Shown here: one piece after another, positions 8,322-19,890 of the stretch
How positions within the stretch are numbered: the first letter of the stretch is position 1
Layout: each line of letters opens with the position of its first letter
DNA from: a virus
DNA length: 20,383 nt
Direction: 5' to 3' (one strand)
Virus record (IMG/VR): IMGVR_UViG_3300025325_000165
Coordinates: 1-20,383 of that record
Program-made: the position numbers and the translations under genes
The notes under the pieces: generated by a model
Database searches by the model: none
What the model saw: only the letters and a program-made list of their open reading frames with translations
Told to the model about the DNA's origin: nothing

Positions 8322-10373
8322 ATGGCGCAGGGACACAGCAAGAGCCGCGCGATTGCGATGTGCCGAACGTCTATGAAGATGAGTGAGAAGCCGATGATTC
8401 GATGGGTTGAACCTTTCGCGTATCAGGCAGGCAAGCCGTTTCGGGTCATGCCGCTTGGCACATTCAAGCGCGGCGAGCGCACCTTGACTATCACGAAAGA
8501 TAATCTCCAGCAGATGGCCGCGAATTTCGAGAATGGGCGTCCGCGTTGGAAGGTCCCGGTTTATTTCGGCCATCCGACCGCCGAACAGCCCGATCCGCCG
8601 AAGGCGGGCAATATCGCTTCGGTCGAGGTACGCGACGATGGCCTGTACGCCGTGCCGGAGTACACCGACAAGGGCAAGGCCAGCGTCGAGGGCGGCGAGT
8701 ATCAGTTCGTCTCGCCGGGCGTGCTGTGGGACAAGAACGGCTCGGCCTACGTGGATGAGCAAGGCCGGCAGTTTGACAATGTCATTGAGCACGTCGCCCT
8801 AACGAATCGGCCCTTTTTCGGGCAGCATGTTGCGCTATTCAGCGAGCCGGGAGTAATCGAAAATATGCACGATGAGGCATACGGGCACGGCTACAAGGGA
8901 CATCGCTTGCTGGAAGCCCTGGAAACCGTGAGCGGATTGGCCGACAGCATGGAAGATGTCGAGGAATTGTCGGGTCCGCTGCAAACGGCCAAGAACGCGC
9001 TCAAAGAGGCCATGAGCAAGATTCTCGCGCTGTTTAGCGCGGATGGGCCAAACCCGGATGGAGAACTTTTTCAGAGCAAAGGCCACATGGGCAAGAGTGG
9101 GCCACATGCGGGCCACGGCGGCGGCAAAGGGAGCATGAAGGGCGGCGGTGGTGCGGCGGGTGGCGCATCGAAAGAGGAGCGCGACAAGGCACACGAAGAA
9201 TTCAAGTTCCTGAACAAGAGAATGGCGGCTGGCAATCTCAAGGCGGGCGAAAAGGCATTGCTGGAACAACGCATGGAGAAGCTCGCCAAGAAAGTCCTCG
9301 GCGTTCCAGAGAATGCCAGTGAGGGCCTTGAGTCAGAAACATTCGCCATGACGCCTAAAATGCTGGAGAAGATGCAGCAGATGCTAGATGACATGCCGGA
9401 AGGCGAAGCGAGGGCCATGCGCAAGCAGATGATGGGCATGAATTTGGCCGAGATGGAGGCCCACATGCGCAAGGAGATGGGCATGGACAAGATGTCTGAG
9501 ACCTTCGCCGTCTGGACAACCGCATTCATGAACGATCTACCCGATTCCAGTTTTTTATACGTTGAATCGGGCGGCGAAAAAGACGAGAGTGGGAAGACCA
9601 AACCGCGCAGCCTGCGGCATTTCCCCTACAAGGACGCCGGCGGCAAGATAGACCTGCCCCACCTGCGCAATGCCCTGGCGCGCATTCCACAAAGCAGCTT
9701 GCCTGCCGATGTGAAGGAGCGCGTCGCCGCGAAGGCGCGACGCCTCGCAGGCGGCACAGGCGAAATCGAAGTCAGTGAAAAGAACAGCATAACATCGGAG
9801 GGTGAAAAGATGGGAAACGACAATCAATCACAGCCCGTCAGCGCCGAAGAGTTCGCCGCATTGAAGGCTAAGGCCGACAAGCTTGACGCGCTGGAGGTCG
9901 AGGTCGGCACGCTCAAGACAAAGGCTGCGGAGGCCGACACCTTCGCCACGCAGCTTGTCGAGATGAAGCGACAACGCCGACGTGACCAGCTCCTGCGGCG
10001 CGCCGAGCAGTTCGTGGCGATTCCGGAGAAGCCGGAGACCATCGCCGAGAAGCTGCAGGCCCTGGAGGAAATGGACGCGGCCCGCGTCGCCGCGCTGCCG
10101 GAGGCGCAGCGCAAGGACGCGCCGAGCCTATTTACCTGGTTTGATGGCCTGCTGGGTACGCTCGATCAAGCAATGGTGCAGGCCGATCTGTTCGGCCAGA
10201 AGTCGGTCGCGCAGAAGGAGCAGGCCGACACATTCGAGGCGGCGGTCGAGGCGAAGCTGGCCGAGAAGTTCGCCGGTGACCGCGCAAAGTACGCCGAGGC
10301 GATGGAAGCCGTCGGCGCGGAGCGGCCTGACCTGGCGCACCAGTACACCATGCGCCAACGCAAGGCGCGGTGA
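8322..10373 (+). CDS. Mu gpI-like prohead protease with C-terminal scaffold
   Basis: This 683-residue protein begins with a small motif VMAQGHSKSRAIAMCRTSM, followed by the protease domain (about 28-185) resembling Mu gpI: PFRVMPLGTFKRGERTLTIT, VPVYFGHPTAEQPDPPKAGN, EYQFVSPGVLW. A glycine/histidine-rich and methionine-rich middle part follows. Next comes a module with FMNDLPDSSFLYVESGG and PRSLRHFPYKDAGGKIDLPH, seen in other phage maturation proteins. The C-terminal 187 residues are a coiled-coil scaffold (EFAALKAKADKLDALEVEVG). It should process and scaffold the prohead. The start is uncertain: the frame reads on upstream (RIEKV) to a stop at 8301 without a start codon, and ATG8379 or ATG8394 are alternatives. 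A nested start at 9810 probably makes free scaffold. Confidence 0.85.
   Translation: MAQGHSKSRAIAMCRTSMKMSEKPMIRWVEPFAYQAGKPFRVMPLGTFKRGERTLTITKDNLQQMAANFENGRPRWKVPVYFGHPTAEQPDPPKAGNIASVEVRDDGLYAVPEYTDKGKASVEGGEYQFVSPGVLWDKNGSAYVDEQGRQFDNVIEHVALTNRPFFGQHVALFSEPGVIENMHDEAYGHGYKGHRLLEALETVSGLADSMEDVEELSGPLQTAKNALKEAMSKILALFSADGPNPDGELFQSKGHMGKSGPHAGHGGGKGSMKGGGGAAGGASKEERDKAHEEFKFLNKRMAAGNLKAGEKALLEQRMEKLAKKVLGVPENASEGLESETFAMTPKMLEKMQQMLDDMPEGEARAMRKQMMGMNLAEMEAHMRKEMGMDKMSETFAVWTTAFMNDLPDSSFLYVESGGEKDESGKTKPRSLRHFPYKDAGGKIDLPHLRNALARIPQSSLPADVKERVAAKARRLAGGTGEIEVSEKNSITSEGEKMGNDNQSQPVSAEEFAALKAKADKLDALEVEVGTLKTKAAEADTFATQLVEMKRQRRRDQLLRRAEQFVAIPEKPETIAEKLQALEEMDAARVAALPEAQRKDAPSLFTWFDGLLGTLDQAMVQADLFGQKSVAQKEQADTFEAAVEAKLAEKFAGDRAKYAEAMEAVGAERPDLAHQYTMRQRKAR
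9810..10373 (+). CDS. Nested in-frame scaffold protein
   Basis: Inside the protease gene, ATG9810 is preceded at seven bases by GGAGGG (9797-9802), a stronger ribosome binding site than that of the full-length gene. Translation in the same frame gives 187 residues that begin MGNDNQSQPVSAEEF and form a long coiled coil, then a helical C-terminus ending RQRKAR. This repeats the known arrangement of lambda C/Nu3 and of Mu I/Z, where the scaffold is the C-terminal part of the protease made from an internal start. Whether both products are made here is inference from the ribosome binding site. Confidence 0.7.
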   Translation: MGNDNQSQPVSAEEFAALKAKADKLDALEVEVGTLKTKAAEADTFATQLVEMKRQRRRDQLLRRAEQFVAIPEKPETIAEKLQALEEMDAARVAALPEAQRKDAPSLFTWFDGLLGTLDQAMVQADLFGQKSVAQKEQADTFEAAVEAKLAEKFAGDRAKYAEAMEAVGAERPDLAHQYTMRQRKAR

Positions 10374-10381
10374 GGTGAAAC

Positions 10382-10807
10382 ATGGCAACCTATAAGGCAA
10401 TATCCATTGACGGCGATGTCAGCTTCCAGGCTGACGTCGACCTGACCCTGGCGCAATACTACTTCGTCGCCGCCGCATCGACGGCGGGCAACGTCAAAGT
10501 CGCCACGGGCGCCAGTAACCCGGTTCCCATCGGCGTGTTGCAGAATGCGCCGAGCGCGGGCCAGGAGGCGCAAGTGCGCGTCATTGGCATGTCGAAGGTC
10601 TTTGCCGTGACTGACGGCACATGCGCGCTGGCCTGGAGCCGCTTCCTGACCGTGAATGCATCCGGGCAGGCCGCCGGCGTCGCCGCCAATCAGGAAGTGA
10701 CCCTGGGGCGCTGGCTCGACACGAGCGCGCCGCTTTCGGCGTCCCGCTTCGGGAACGCGTTCATCAACTGCATGGCCGCGACCGGCTGCGCGCCGAGCGC
10801 CTCGTGA
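10382..10807 (+). CDS. Head decoration-like protein, paralog 1
   Basis: A 141-residue protein just before the major capsid gene, the usual place of a capsid decoration (DUF2190-like) protein. GAGGTGAAAC precedes the ATG. Shared blocks with the protein encoded at 12080-12529 are QYYFVA, ATGASNP-PIGVLQNAP, a G-x-x-K turn, GRWL and a C-terminal AF--CM-----C. The beta-rich, glycine- and alanine-rich composition fits a capsid-surface protein. No transmembrane segment or signal peptide is present. It should bind the outside of the capsid lattice; the exact fold is not provable from the sequence alone. Confidence 0.7.
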   Translation: MATYKAISIDGDVSFQADVDLTLAQYYFVAAASTAGNVKVATGASNPVPIGVLQNAPSAGQEAQVRVIGMSKVFAVTDGTCALAWSRFLTVNASGQAAGVAANQEVTLGRWLDTSAPLSASRFGNAFINCMAATGCAPSAS

Positions 10808-12079: not shown

Positions 12080-12529
12080 ATGCCTATCAACTACCGCAAC
12101 AAGGCCAACTTCACGGCGGGCGCGGCCATCGACGAGATCTTCACAGCCGCCGAGTCTCTGACGGGCAAGCAATACTATTTCGTCGCGCCCGGTTCGATCG
12201 CAGGCGAGGTCATCGCCGCGACCGGCGCGAGCAACCCGGCGCCGATCGGCGTCCTGCAGAACGCGCCCGGCGCGGCGAAAAAGGCTTACGTCCGCATCTT
12301 CGGCGTCACGAAGCTGACAGGCTGCGCCGCGACGTGCGACATCCGCAACGGGCGTTTCGTCCGTTCGTCGAGCGTCGGCGCGGCGGAAGTGCCGGCCAGC
12401 GCGGGTGGCGGCGTCATCCAGGGCCGCTGGCTTTCGGCAAGCGTCGCCACGAATGCGTCCGGCCTGGCCACGAAAGCGTTCGTGGACTGTATGAGCCTCG
12501 GCGGAGTGTGCGCCGTGAGTACATCCTAA
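12080..12529 (+). CDS. Head decoration-like protein, paralog 2
   Basis: A 149-residue paralog of the protein encoded at 10382-10807: shared blocks are KQYYFVAPGSIAGEVIAATG, then ASNPAPIGVLQNAP, a F-G-V-T-K turn, GRWLSAS and KAFVDCMSLGGVC. GGAGGG five bases before the ATG is a strong ribosome binding site. The two copies flank the major capsid gene and the minus-strand RNA unit. The cysteine count is higher here. It is probably a second capsid-surface protein, or a copy recruited to another virion position. Confidence 0.7.
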   Translation: MPINYRNKANFTAGAAIDEIFTAAESLTGKQYYFVAPGSIAGEVIAATGASNPAPIGVLQNAPGAAKKAYVRIFGVTKLTGCAATCDIRNGRFVRSSSVGAAEVPASAGGGVIQGRWLSASVATNASGLATKAFVDCMSLGGVCAVSTS

Positions 12530-12952: not shown

Positions 12953-13560
12953 ATGTCTGCATTGAGCAACTTCCTAGAGAACGAAGTGTTGGATTAACTA
13001 TAGTCCCTCTGCGTGGTGACGCGCAGAGCAAACCCTGAATATCGGTGGAAGGCTGAGATGCTAACGCCGAGGCACAGGCCGCAAGGCAAGGCCGTAACGA
13101 CTACCAACGGGCGACTCTCTGAGTCGATGGCATAGTCTGGTCTGCAACGAAATGAAGTTGCAGAGTGCGGCAGAAATGACCGCACCCGCAAAAGCGAGTA
13201 ACAAAAACGCATTTGTTCGGAACCGGGACCTACAGCAGCCCGTGCGTCTATGTCGGTCTGGATTCCGGCTCGCCCACCGACACCGGCCCAGGTTCTGAGG
13301 TGAGCGGCGGCGGCTACCTGCGCCAGCGCGCCGTGAACTGGGACGTGGCGGCGGCGGGCGCGACCGAGAACTCCAGCGCGATCACCTTCCCGCAGGCCAC
13401 CGCCTCCTACAACGTCAAGGCAGTCATCCTGATGGACGGATCGACAGTCGCCTGCACGACGAATATGCTATGGTACGGCTTCCTGACCACCTCGCGGCTG
13501 GTGAACGAGAACGACACCTTCGAGATCGCGGCGTCCAGCCTGGATGTGACGATCGCTTAA
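12953..13560 (+). CDS. Phage tail-type structural protein split by a group I intron
   Basis: Exon 1 is 12953-12994 (MSALSNFLENEVLD) and exon 2 is 13210-13560 (HLFGTGTYSSPCVYVGLDSG...). Joined, they give 130 residues with the family pattern ALSN-LEN-LLDH-F--T-Y--P---YV-L----PT--GTG-EVSGGGY, as I recall it from many phage structural proteins. Without splicing, translation stops at the TAA that forms the first bases of the intron, giving only 14 residues. AGGAG lies ten bases before the ATG. Exon 2 alone could be mistaken for a gene starting at TTG13213. The rest is beta-rich and ends in SSLDVTIA. It is probably a virion protein; the exact position is not known. Confidence 0.85.
12995..13209 (+). 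ncRNA. Group I self-splicing intron, ORF-less, 215 nt
   Basis: All core helices can be placed. P1 is exon GGAT (12991-12994) with GTCC (13003-13006), with the required U-G pair at the splice site. P2 is 13007-13013/13022-13028. P3 is near 13033-13035/13109-13111. P4 is 13042-13047/13065-13070. P5 and P6 lie at 13051-13093. P7 is GACTA (13099-13103) with TAGTC (13133-13137). P8 is 13112-13117/13121-13126. P9 is 13141-13148/13157-13164, followed by a hairpin 13165-13170/13180-13185. The intron ends in G13209. The ACGACTA ... ATAGTCTG core recalls the T4 td intron. No endonuclease is encoded inside. Confidence 0.88.
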
Positions 13561-15187: not shown

Positions 15188-16600
15188 GTGGCGGGCCACG
15201 TATTCAGAGCACCGCCCCACCCTACCCAGCGAGTCCGCAGCGTCGTCGGGCCGCTGTCCCCGCCGCCGCCTGAACTTATTCAGGGCGAGGCGACACTTTC
15301 TGCATTCGGTTCTTTAATATCTGACATACAGGCCACGCTGCGGCCCGATGCTGCATTGGCTGCGTTCGGTTCGCTCACGGCGGACGCCGCGCTCACCATC
15401 CGACACGCCGTCGCGCTGGATGCGTTCAGCGACCTGACGCCTGCGGGCCAAATCACGGCGCGCGGCGACTCGGCGCTGGCGGCGTTCGGGGATCTGGTCG
15501 CGGAGGGCATCAAGAAGATTTCGGGCGCGGTGATTCTGGACGCGTTCGGCGCGCTGACCATAGACCCGGCGCTGACTCTCCGGCCGGACGCCGCGCTCGC
15601 CGCCCTCGGATCGCTGACATCGGACGCGCGGGTCACGCTCCGCCCAGACGCGGCCCTGGCCGCCTTCGGGTCGGTCGTGCCTGACGCGCAGATGACGTTA
15701 CGACCCGATGCTGCGCTGGCCGCATCGGGCGACCTGACTCCCGATGGCGGGCTGCGCATCGCCGGGGATGCGGCGCTGGCCGCATTTGGCGATTTGGTCG
15801 CCGAGGGCATCAAGAAGATTGTCGCGGATGCTGCGCTCGCGGCCTTCGGCAGTTTGATCGCAGATGCTCTTCTGACGCTTCGGCCCGATACGGCGCTGGC
15901 TGCCTTCGGCAATCTGGATGCGGCGGCGCGGCTCACGCAGCGCGACAGTGCGGCCCTGGCTGCGCTCGGATCGTTGGATGCGGCGGCGCGACTCACGCTG
16001 CGCCCCGACCTGATAAGCGCCGCATTCGGTTCGCTCACGGCGGACGGCAGTATCGTCACTCCAATCGAAGTGGCGATGGCCGCGTTCGGCTCACTGACCG
16101 CAGACGGCCAGTTGATCCTGCGCGCGGACGCCGCACTGGCCGCCTTCGGCTTATTGACCGCAGATGTTGGCAAAGTGTTCGGTTCCGCGACATTGGAGGC
16201 GTTCGCTAACTTTGCGCAAACTGGTCAGCTAACACTTTCGGGTGATTCCGCGCTCGCCGCGCTCGGAACGCTGATCTCCGACGGTGCGCTGACGCAGCGC
16301 GAAACGGTATCATTGGCGGGTGTCGGCGCGCTGGATGTCGCATTCCAACTGAGGCTGGGCGGATCGGCGATGCTGGCCGGCATCGGGACACTGACGCCAG
16401 ATGGACGTCTGACGCTGTCGGCGGATGCCGCGCTCGCCGCCCTCGGATCGCTGGTGGCAGCTGGCGACATTCAGATTCAGGATGTGTTTGCGGCGCTTGC
16501 GCTAACGCTGGCGCGCCGAGATTTCGTTCTCAACCTGCGCGACCGCAGCTTGACGCTGAATTTGAATCGCAGGTCAAGAACGATTAGGACAAAGAACTGA
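15188..16600 (+). CDS. Repeat protein, likely fibre shaft (20 x 20 aa)
   Basis: The 470-residue product has a short proline-rich N-terminus, twenty repeats (residues 34-433), and a basic C-terminal tail (RDFVLNLRDRSLTLNLNRRS). The repeat consensus is AALAAFGSLTADARLTLRPD; invariant-like positions are A-L-A-G-L and a late L-x-L. Eighteen repeats are exactly 20 residues, one is 21 and one is 19. The pattern fits stacked beta structure, as in phage fibre shafts or adhesins. The start is GTG15188 with GGGAG upstream; ATG15186 is in another frame that closes early. Its stop overlaps the next start (TGATG). No enzymatic domain is present. Confidence 0.75.
   Translation: MAGHVFRAPPHPTQRVRSVVGPLSPPPPELIQGEATLSAFGSLISDIQATLRPDAALAAFGSLTADAALTIRHAVALDAFSDLTPAGQITARGDSALAAFGDLVAEGIKKISGAVILDAFGALTIDPALTLRPDAALAALGSLTSDARVTLRPDAALAAFGSVVPDAQMTLRPDAALAASGDLTPDGGLRIAGDAALAAFGDLVAEGIKKIVADAALAAFGSLIADALLTLRPDTALAAFGNLDAAARLTQRDSAALAALGSLDAAARLTLRPDLISAAFGSLTADGSIVTPIEVAMAAFGSLTADGQLILRADAALAAFGLLTADVGKVFGSATLEAFANFAQTGQLTLSGDSALAALGTLISDGALTQRETVSLAGVGALDVAFQLRLGGSAMLAGIGTLTPDGRLTLSADAALAALGSLVAAGDIQIQDVFAALALTLARRDFVLNLRDRSLTLNLNRRSRTIRTKN
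15287..16486 (+). repeat. Twenty 60-bp coding repeats
   Basis: Twenty units of about 60 bp encode the 20-residue repeats. Units are diverged except for a few near-copies, for example the two that encode GDLVAEGIKKI (repeats 4 and 9, 300 bp apart) and LDAAARLT (repeats 11 and 12). This suggests growth by duplication of blocks followed by drift. Confidence 0.85.
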
Positions 16601-18378: not shown

Positions 18379-18931
18379 GGATCGCTGGCCGGCCATATAC
18401 GAAATCAACATCCCGCAGCCGCTGACGGCGGTGGACGGCAATCCGCACATCTGGGAAACGCTGGCGCTGTGCCAGATTGCCGCGACGGTTCCAGCGCGCA
18501 CGATCTTCGAGATCGGGACGTACAACGGCTCGACGGTGACGGCCCTGAGCGCAGTGCCGGGCATCGAGAGGATATGGACGCTCGACCTGCCGCCGAACCA
18601 GGCCCCTGCCCTTCCGCTGGCCGACGGCGATTGGCGCTATCTGAATGCGCCGAAGCTCCCGTTGCCTGCCATAGTCGGACAACTCTGGGGCGACAGCGCG
18701 ACGTTCGACTTCGGGCCATACAAGCGCCGTTGCGACCTGGTATTCGTGATGGGTGCGCACAGCCCGGAGTACATTGAGAACGACCTGGCCGCCGCGTTCG
18801 TGCTGAAATCACCGATGGGCGTGGTCGTGCTGCACACGGGCACGGAGAAACCAATGCGCGATGTATGTCTGAAGTATGATATTTGGCTCATCAGTGCTCG
18901 GATGGCAGTGGTCGATTCATGTGCGAGTTAA
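18359..18931 (+). CDS. Class I SAM-dependent methyltransferase (Methyltransf_24-like)
   Basis: The 190-residue protein contains TIFEIGTYNGSTVTALSAVP (motif I, SAM-binding glycine loop), IWTLDLP (motif II), then DLVFVMGAHSPEYIENDLAA and GVVVLHTGTE. Related proteins have IDGAHSYEYV--D and a later WHD; here the first D is M and HT replaces HD, so activity may differ. Such enzymes often lie beside glycosyltransferases and act on sugars or small molecules; here the next + strand gene is a glycosyltransferase. I chose ATG18359, which overlaps the connector gene. Its stop overlaps the stop of the minus-strand nuclease gene. Confidence 0.75.
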   Translation: MIQARVEDRWPAIYEINIPQPLTAVDGNPHIWETLALCQIAATVPARTIFEIGTYNGSTVTALSAVPGIERIWTLDLPPNQAPALPLADGDWRYLNAPKLPLPAIVGQLWGDSATFDFGPYKRRCDLVFVMGAHSPEYIENDLAAAFVLKSPMGVVVLHTGTEKPMRDVCLKYDIWLISARMAVVDSCAS

Positions 18932-19890
18932 GAAATTGGCAATTCGCCTGTTCGTTCAAAATGAATCAATTCATCTTTACCTATGATGAGAATATGTTTG
19001 TCGGGATGTGCACAGGACACTAACCACATTTTAATTTTATCTTTTTCTCTGAACCATCCTTTTGTCTCTATATAGATAGATAGTGATGGGATGAAGAAAT
19101 CTGGCATATATCTATGATCTTTTCCAGAGGCATCCTTGTACTTAAGCGGCTTGATTTCACCATGAGCCAACCAATCAAGATTGAGTTTGTCGAGCATCAC
19201 GGCAAATCTGTACTCATAAGTGCCTTGCAACTTAACAACTGAATCATCGCGGCGTTTATAATCTATGCGCGGAACATGATATGGTCCACCCTCAAAGGTC
19301 GTATGTGGTTTGAGTCCAGCGAGCTCGCAGGCGCGTACCCAGCTTCCGAATTGTTTCCAGTATACAGCCGTGGAACAATTACCATGTTTCCTGAATTCTG
19401 TATCTGTTGGAGTGTGCCCAATCTCTCGAGCAACGCGCTGAAGTTCATCAATTAGTTGCTCGTCAGTATAGAGATTTTTCCCCTTGTTGTGAGGGTATTG
19501 ACTGCGGATAATCGGAGATTTCTTCTTATGGACAGTGGGTGTCTTAATGCCGAATCTATTTTCTGAGAGATATGGAATATCGGCGAAGCGGTTAGCATGT
19601 TCAACAGAACCAAAACGACGCGCATAAAGAATTGAGCGTCCTGACCATTCAGAATCAATATCTTTTGCAGTTGGACGTCTTTGAAGTTTATGAGCTAAAG
19701 TCAATAGATCGGATAAGGCTTGATCATCTTCAATCTTATTGGGCGGTATCCATCTTCCGCTCCGACGAAAAACATAGCGACAAGACTTTGAACAAAATGT
19801 ATGAGTCTTGCCGAGCATCTGTGAAGCAAGACGGTAAAAGATAGTATTGCAATTATCACATATATATGGAAGCCTTTGGATTTTTCTCAT
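18928..19890 (-). CDS. Homing-type endonuclease with PD-(D/E)XK nuclease domain
   Basis: The 320-residue protein has an N-terminal zinc finger (C11, C14, C33, C37: CDNC ... FCSKSC). Two homing-endonuclease-associated repeats follow (about 56-105 and 143-193), the second being EQLIDELQRVAREIGHTPTD ... FGSWVRACELAGL. The C-terminal nuclease domain (about 222-310) has E226, D264 (MPDF) and E275-x-K277 (IETKG), the PD-(D/E)XK set. Such proteins cut DNA at defined sites and spread by homing. The gene is AT-richer than its neighbours, lies on the opposite strand, and fits exactly between two + strand genes, which points to a mobile insertion. It is led by its own promoter and structured RNA copy 3. 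No intron is recognised around it. Confidence 0.85.
   Translation of the reverse strand: MRKIQRLPYICDNCNTIFYRLASQMLGKTHTFCSKSCRYVFRRSGRWIPPNKIEDDQALSDLLTLAHKLQRRPTAKDIDSEWSGRSILYARRFGSVEHANRFADIPYLSENRFGIKTPTVHKKKSPIIRSQYPHNKGKNLYTDEQLIDELQRVAREIGHTPTDTEFRKHGNCSTAVYWKQFGSWVRACELAGLKPHTTFEGGPYHVPRIDYKRRDDSVVKLQGTYEYRFAVMLDKLNLDWLAHGEIKPLKYKDASGKDHRYMPDFFIPSLSIYIETKGWFREKDKIKMWLVSCAHPDKHILIIGKDELIHFERTGELPIS

Follow-up and report, generated by a model that had tools for sequence, protein, structure and literature searches.

A 215-nt ORF-less group I intron interrupting a structural gene of a phage, and its Rfam-negative sub-lineage

The window analysed here, a 20,383-base IMG/VR phage record with a Mu-like portal, protease and major head protein, contains a structural gene of the Gp80 family (Pfam PF23140) whose reading frame stops after 14 codons and is resumed 215 nt further on. 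What is the intervening segment, and how is a complete protein made across it? Our answer, held at a probability of about 95%, is that it is a group I intron, and we infer from its sequence that this copy splices itself. It is a genuine and ordinary member of a class already known. The coordinates of the exons, the intron and its helices are collected in Table 1.

Table 1 Features of the interrupted Gp80-family gene and its intron (positions in the window; a slash within a sequence marks the 5' splice site)
Feature	Position	Strand	Basis
Exon 1 of Gp80-family gene: MSALSNFLENEVLD (14 codons), last base U12994	12953–12994	+	Reading frame; joined PF23140 match from profile position 1
ORF-less group I intron, 215 nt	12995–13209	+	Covariance model R1, built without the window sequence: 136.1 bits, E 4.8e-45
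P1: GGAU/UA (12991–12996) with UAGUCC (13001–13006); U12994·G13003 at the 5' splice site; internal guide 13003–13006	12991–13006	+	MFE fold; exon covariation in L037, KLEP7, L038 and L064
P2, 9 bp, GUGA tetraloop	13007–13028	+	Fold; GNRA loop kept in L037, KLEP7 and L038 despite changed stem pairs
P3: CCC (13033–13035) with GGG (13109–13111); next pair U13036 × C13108 mismatched	13033–13111	+	Position is U·G in KLEP7, G-C in L064
P4 (13042–13047/13065–13070) and P5 (13051–13053/13060–13062), AA joiners	13042–13070	+	Covariance model alignment; pair counts on relatives
P6 (13071–13073/13091–13093) and P6a (13078–13080/13085–13087)	13071–13093	+	Fold; covariance model alignment
P7: GACUA (13099–13103) with UAGUC (13133–13137); predicted guanosine-binding helix, pseudoknotted with P3	13099–13137	+	Invariant in 10/10 relatives, present in window
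P8, 6 bp, UCU loop	13112–13126	+	Fold; model alignment; covarying pairs in relatives
P9	13141–13164	+	Fold; model alignment; covarying pairs in relatives
P9.1 (13165–13172/13177–13185) and P9.2 (13187–13189/13194–13196), 3' domain conserved in lineage	13165–13196	+	Relatives; model alignment
Terminal G of intron	13209	+	Sequence; same rule restores the motif in RNR genes of KLEP7 and L038
Exon 2 of Gp80-family gene, starts HLFGTGTY	13210–13560	+	PF23140: 85.5 bits alone, 103.9 joined

The boundaries are fixed by the host gene. Exon 2 alone aligns with positions 13 to 128 of the Pfam profile, and when the exons are joined the match runs from 1 to 128 with the frame open. Excision brings GAU to CAU (12994 to 13210), and the protein start LENEVLD/HLFGTGTY that the first-pass annotation had expected at this junction is restored, completing the Pfam match from its first position. 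Intronless homologues read through the site, for example, with LEILD/HVF in L002. The proposed comparison with intron-less relatives of the same gene yielded ~20 Gp80 loci, 13 of them from a search with a single relative, and the covariance model described below found an intron at this site in none of them. These results support the view that the intron occupies a conserved site in a virion gene.

The intron follows a splice rule that it shares with its relatives, in which the exon ends in the U of the P1 U·G pair and the intron ends in G. Both marks had been predicted here and both are present (U12994·G13003 and G13209). Applied to the relatives, the rule restores the active-site motif of ribonucleotide reductase (RNR) in Pseudaeromonas phage KLEP7 (NPCAEI) and in L038 (NPCGEQ), and in L064 it makes the major tail protein complete. 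The P1 guide and the exon change together (GGA/UCC, GG(G)/CCC, CCG/CGG and GGGG/CCCC), as seen in four relatives (L037, KLEP7, L038 and L064) from two other kinds of gene. One of these, the related intron at L037:6986-7208, lies in a tail-type gene with the exons MALRKGIKIGERIG / GMTLAVDDSGG. When the L037 exons are joined as predicted, the frame is off by a single base, perhaps owing to a slip in sequencing or in the contig, or to a different splice point.

The check originally suggested, a search with the Rfam group I model RF00028, gave no match to the intron: none was found in the whole window, nor in a 321-base piece at E ≤ 10. A missing Rfam match had been named, together with a missing spliced product, as what would speak against an intron; the first of the two was found, and relatives were therefore sought. 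In a nucleotide search for distant relatives, 29 Mycobacterium phage records matched over the 3' domain, and KLEP7 matched over a longer stretch. Among viral contigs, the shared 3' domain pattern identified 30 stretches and the core pattern of the sub-lineage eight more. Plasmids gave no match, nor did bacterial genomes searched with the sub-lineage core pattern; the broader 3' domain pattern found a single Bacillus contig, L050, in the bacterial genomes.

Five of the relatives (L007, L022, L026, L032 and L050) exceed the gathering score of RF00028, and through them the family is tied to group I. The sub-lineage nearest to the window intron, consisting of KLEP7, L036, L037, L038, L064 and the window, is unmatched by Rfam. 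Because homologous relatives pass, the failure reflects the range of the model, whose coverage of phage introns has been reported to be incomplete (PMC11878797). The window intron has the helix order P1–P9 and the P7 sequence GACUA/UAGUC in common with RF00028, although that model gives it no match. In two of the contigs, the Rfam group I matches come in clusters of three (L050:3287-5446, a Bacillus sp. contig, and L032:814-2332, a viral contig).

A covariance model was then available from the relatives themselves: ten sequences, the window not among them, were aligned and annotated by hand with the group I structure. This model matches the window at 13027–13208 with 136 bits (E ~5e-45), whereas its second-best match there reaches only 3.8 bits; one of the ten sequences, L037, shares 78% identity with the window intron, and the score rests partly on this near relative. 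In the ten relatives the named pairs are formed in 92.6% of cells and 23 of the 46 pairs have changed on both sides, compared with averages of 76.5% and 15.4 two-sided pairs for column shuffles and 33 to 40% paired for slid partners, a margin that is in part built in since the structure was drawn from the same sequences. The pairs of P9.1 are formed in 100% of cells and those of P9.2 in 90%, with compensatory changes in both. The window intron RNA also folds more stably than its shuffles (z = − 5.0). The leave-out model and the joined exons thus bear out a group I intron with exactly the boundaries first proposed.

The earlier statement that every core helix can be placed holds for P2 to P9.2, all of which were located, with the reservation that P3 is weak and consists of CCC/GGG only. 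The extra P7.1/P7.2 by P3 and P7 that mark subgroup IA are absent, because the joiner from P7 to P3 is only 13104–13108 and P8 follows directly after P3. Placement of P3 by alignment alone was doubtful and was settled by its counterpart in L064, where the strands are CCCG/CGGG; those of the window are CCCU/CGGG and those of KLEP7 CCCU/GGGG. The duplex energy of the window P3 (− 5.0 kcal/mol) is the weakest of the eleven compared, the relatives ranging from − 6.8 to − 14.0 kcal/mol, and a short P3 is typical of the sub-lineage. Splicing of the window intron could therefore be slow or impaired, and P3 is the chief ground for doubting its full activity.

The strongest alternative starts from this helix. 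The element might be a degenerate group I intron, rightly placed and recently active, in which the P3 mismatch leads to poor splicing and leaves the gene low or off. The P3 of three pairs, with U × C at the fourth where KLEP7 has U·G and L064 has G-C, speaks for it. The other core positions and helices are, however, all intact, and both exons are open and encode a protein that matches its family from end to end, so that the host gene shows no decay. We consider degeneration unlikely and retain the reading of a self-splicing group I intron.

That relatives of this kind do splice is established for the introns of the Cluster J mycobacteriophages BAKA (in a tail gene) and LittleE (in a capsid gene), which were shown by RT-PCR to be removed with a U at the exon end and a G at the intron end (PMC3706429). 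Their matches to RF00028 are weak, at ~30 bits, and fall below the cut-off. They share with the window intron the group I core, the 3' domain ATAGTCnGGTCT...GCAGAAATGAC...GTAACAAA, the exon-end U and intron-end G and a location in a virion gene, and the BAKA intron, as that of the window, is without an endonuclease gene. They differ in being longer (BAKA 265 bp, LittleE about 820 bp), in having a full-length P3 and a weak RF00028 match, and in their host genes. The description of the window intron as minimal is only mildly true, its 215 nt comparing with 223–230 nt in ORF-less relatives and 265 nt in BAKA (PMC3706429).

Closer to the window is the intron of KLEP7 (OM654377; L003:1146-1375), where RNR is annotated as two CDSs with an unannotated 230-nt group I intron between them; a literature search on KLEP7 and introns found no paper. 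It belongs to the same sub-lineage and has the short P3, the negative Rfam result and the P1 rule in common with the window intron, from which it differs in its length, in its RNR host gene and in sequence (59% identical).

The closest intron of all is that of L064 (IMGVR_UViG_3300031576_000521), at 8697–9371 and 675 nt long. With the P5 insert excluded, it shares 91% identity with the window intron over 215 nt, but it carries an antisense HNH endonuclease gene in P5, interrupts a major tail protein gene and has another guide sequence, matched to its own exon. Nearly the same ribozyme thus occurs in two host genes, with an endonuclease gene in one case and none in the other, and its guide region differs between them. 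The near relatives L037, KLEP7 and L038 are ORF-less, and comparison of these sequences therefore favours a gain of the HNH gene by L064 over its loss from the window copy. A wider reading is possible and is put forward tentatively: that this is a phage-confined sub-lineage with a short P3, invisible to Rfam, whose nearly identical copies pass from one virion gene to another, unrelated one with mainly the guide changed and the HNH gene in P5 optional. If true, the window and L064 pair would be a snapshot of a recent ectopic transposition.

How the window intron itself might move is a separate matter. No endonuclease gene lies within its 215 nt, as had been noted from the start; one 72-aa antisense frame, spanning the intron, is listed there. 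The gene that distinguishes a mobile (homing) group I intron is thus absent from the window copy and present in its sibling L064. It had been suggested that the intron may depend on a nuclease elsewhere, one candidate being that encoded at 18928–19890, which would make it an ORF-less intron spread in trans by a free-standing enzyme, a reading compatible with its identity as a group I intron. Phages do provide precedents for collaborative homing of ORF-less introns (PMC3984707), the window intron is without a nuclease gene, and the 18928–19890 protein bears homing-endonuclease-associated repeats together with a Phage_endo_I domain. Against this, the nuclease lies ~5.7 kb from the intron, bears no resemblance to the HNH protein encoded in the L064 intron, has no relatives in the viral contigs scanned and was not found in the L037 record, the last being a weak negative; in phages it gives partial matches only, at 34–38% identity. 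The proposed dependence is thus unsupported, and we regard spread by this nuclease as improbable. The region from 18928–19890 to about 20000 is AT-rich (42–44% GC), the nuclease gene on the minus strand abuts the end of a plus-strand ORF, and the stretch looks like a recent insertion.

Splicing of group I introns is started by a guanosine cofactor, and by analogy the window intron should splice in the same way. The RNA would fold around the P4–P6 and P3–P8 domains, with P7 binding the guanosine, which would attack the bond after U12994, a base that P1 pairs with G13003. Exon 1, once released, would then attack after G13209, so that GAU is joined to CAU and the protein is restored. The first in-frame codon of the intron is TAA, the unspliced message encoding only 14 residues, and the block to unspliced translation that had been predicted from this codon agrees with its presence. 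The same codon should stop ribosomes ahead of the ribozyme; its immediate position is in line with the idea, found in the literature, that in-frame stops aid folding by stalling ribosomes (PMC3984707). A stop right after the last exon codon is also found at the take-off site of programmed ribosome bypassing, as in T4 gene 60, but retention of the 215 nt in the mRNA with ribosomes hopping across is rejected as highly implausible given the full covarying group I core in the relatives, their splicing seen at the RNA level (PMC3706429) and the unmatched take-off and landing codons (GAT before the gap, CAT after).

The main value of the window intron is to illustrate the blind spot of Rfam and the way in which guides change between siblings. 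It confirms that structural genes of phages can conceal compact introns, of which the standard Rfam model overlooks a whole sub-lineage; gene callers consequently split these genes or place their starts wrongly. The two siblings, one ORF-less and one with an HNH gene, have guides fitted to different tail genes and provide a natural case of target-site change.

Two further features of the window were observed. A 470-aa protein encoded at 15188–16600 consists of many degenerate 'LAAFGSLTADA'-like repeats. The proteins encoded at 10382–10807 and 12080–12529, which flank the major head gene, have the motif QYYFVA...TGASNP.PIGVLQNAP in common and are likely to be paralogues.
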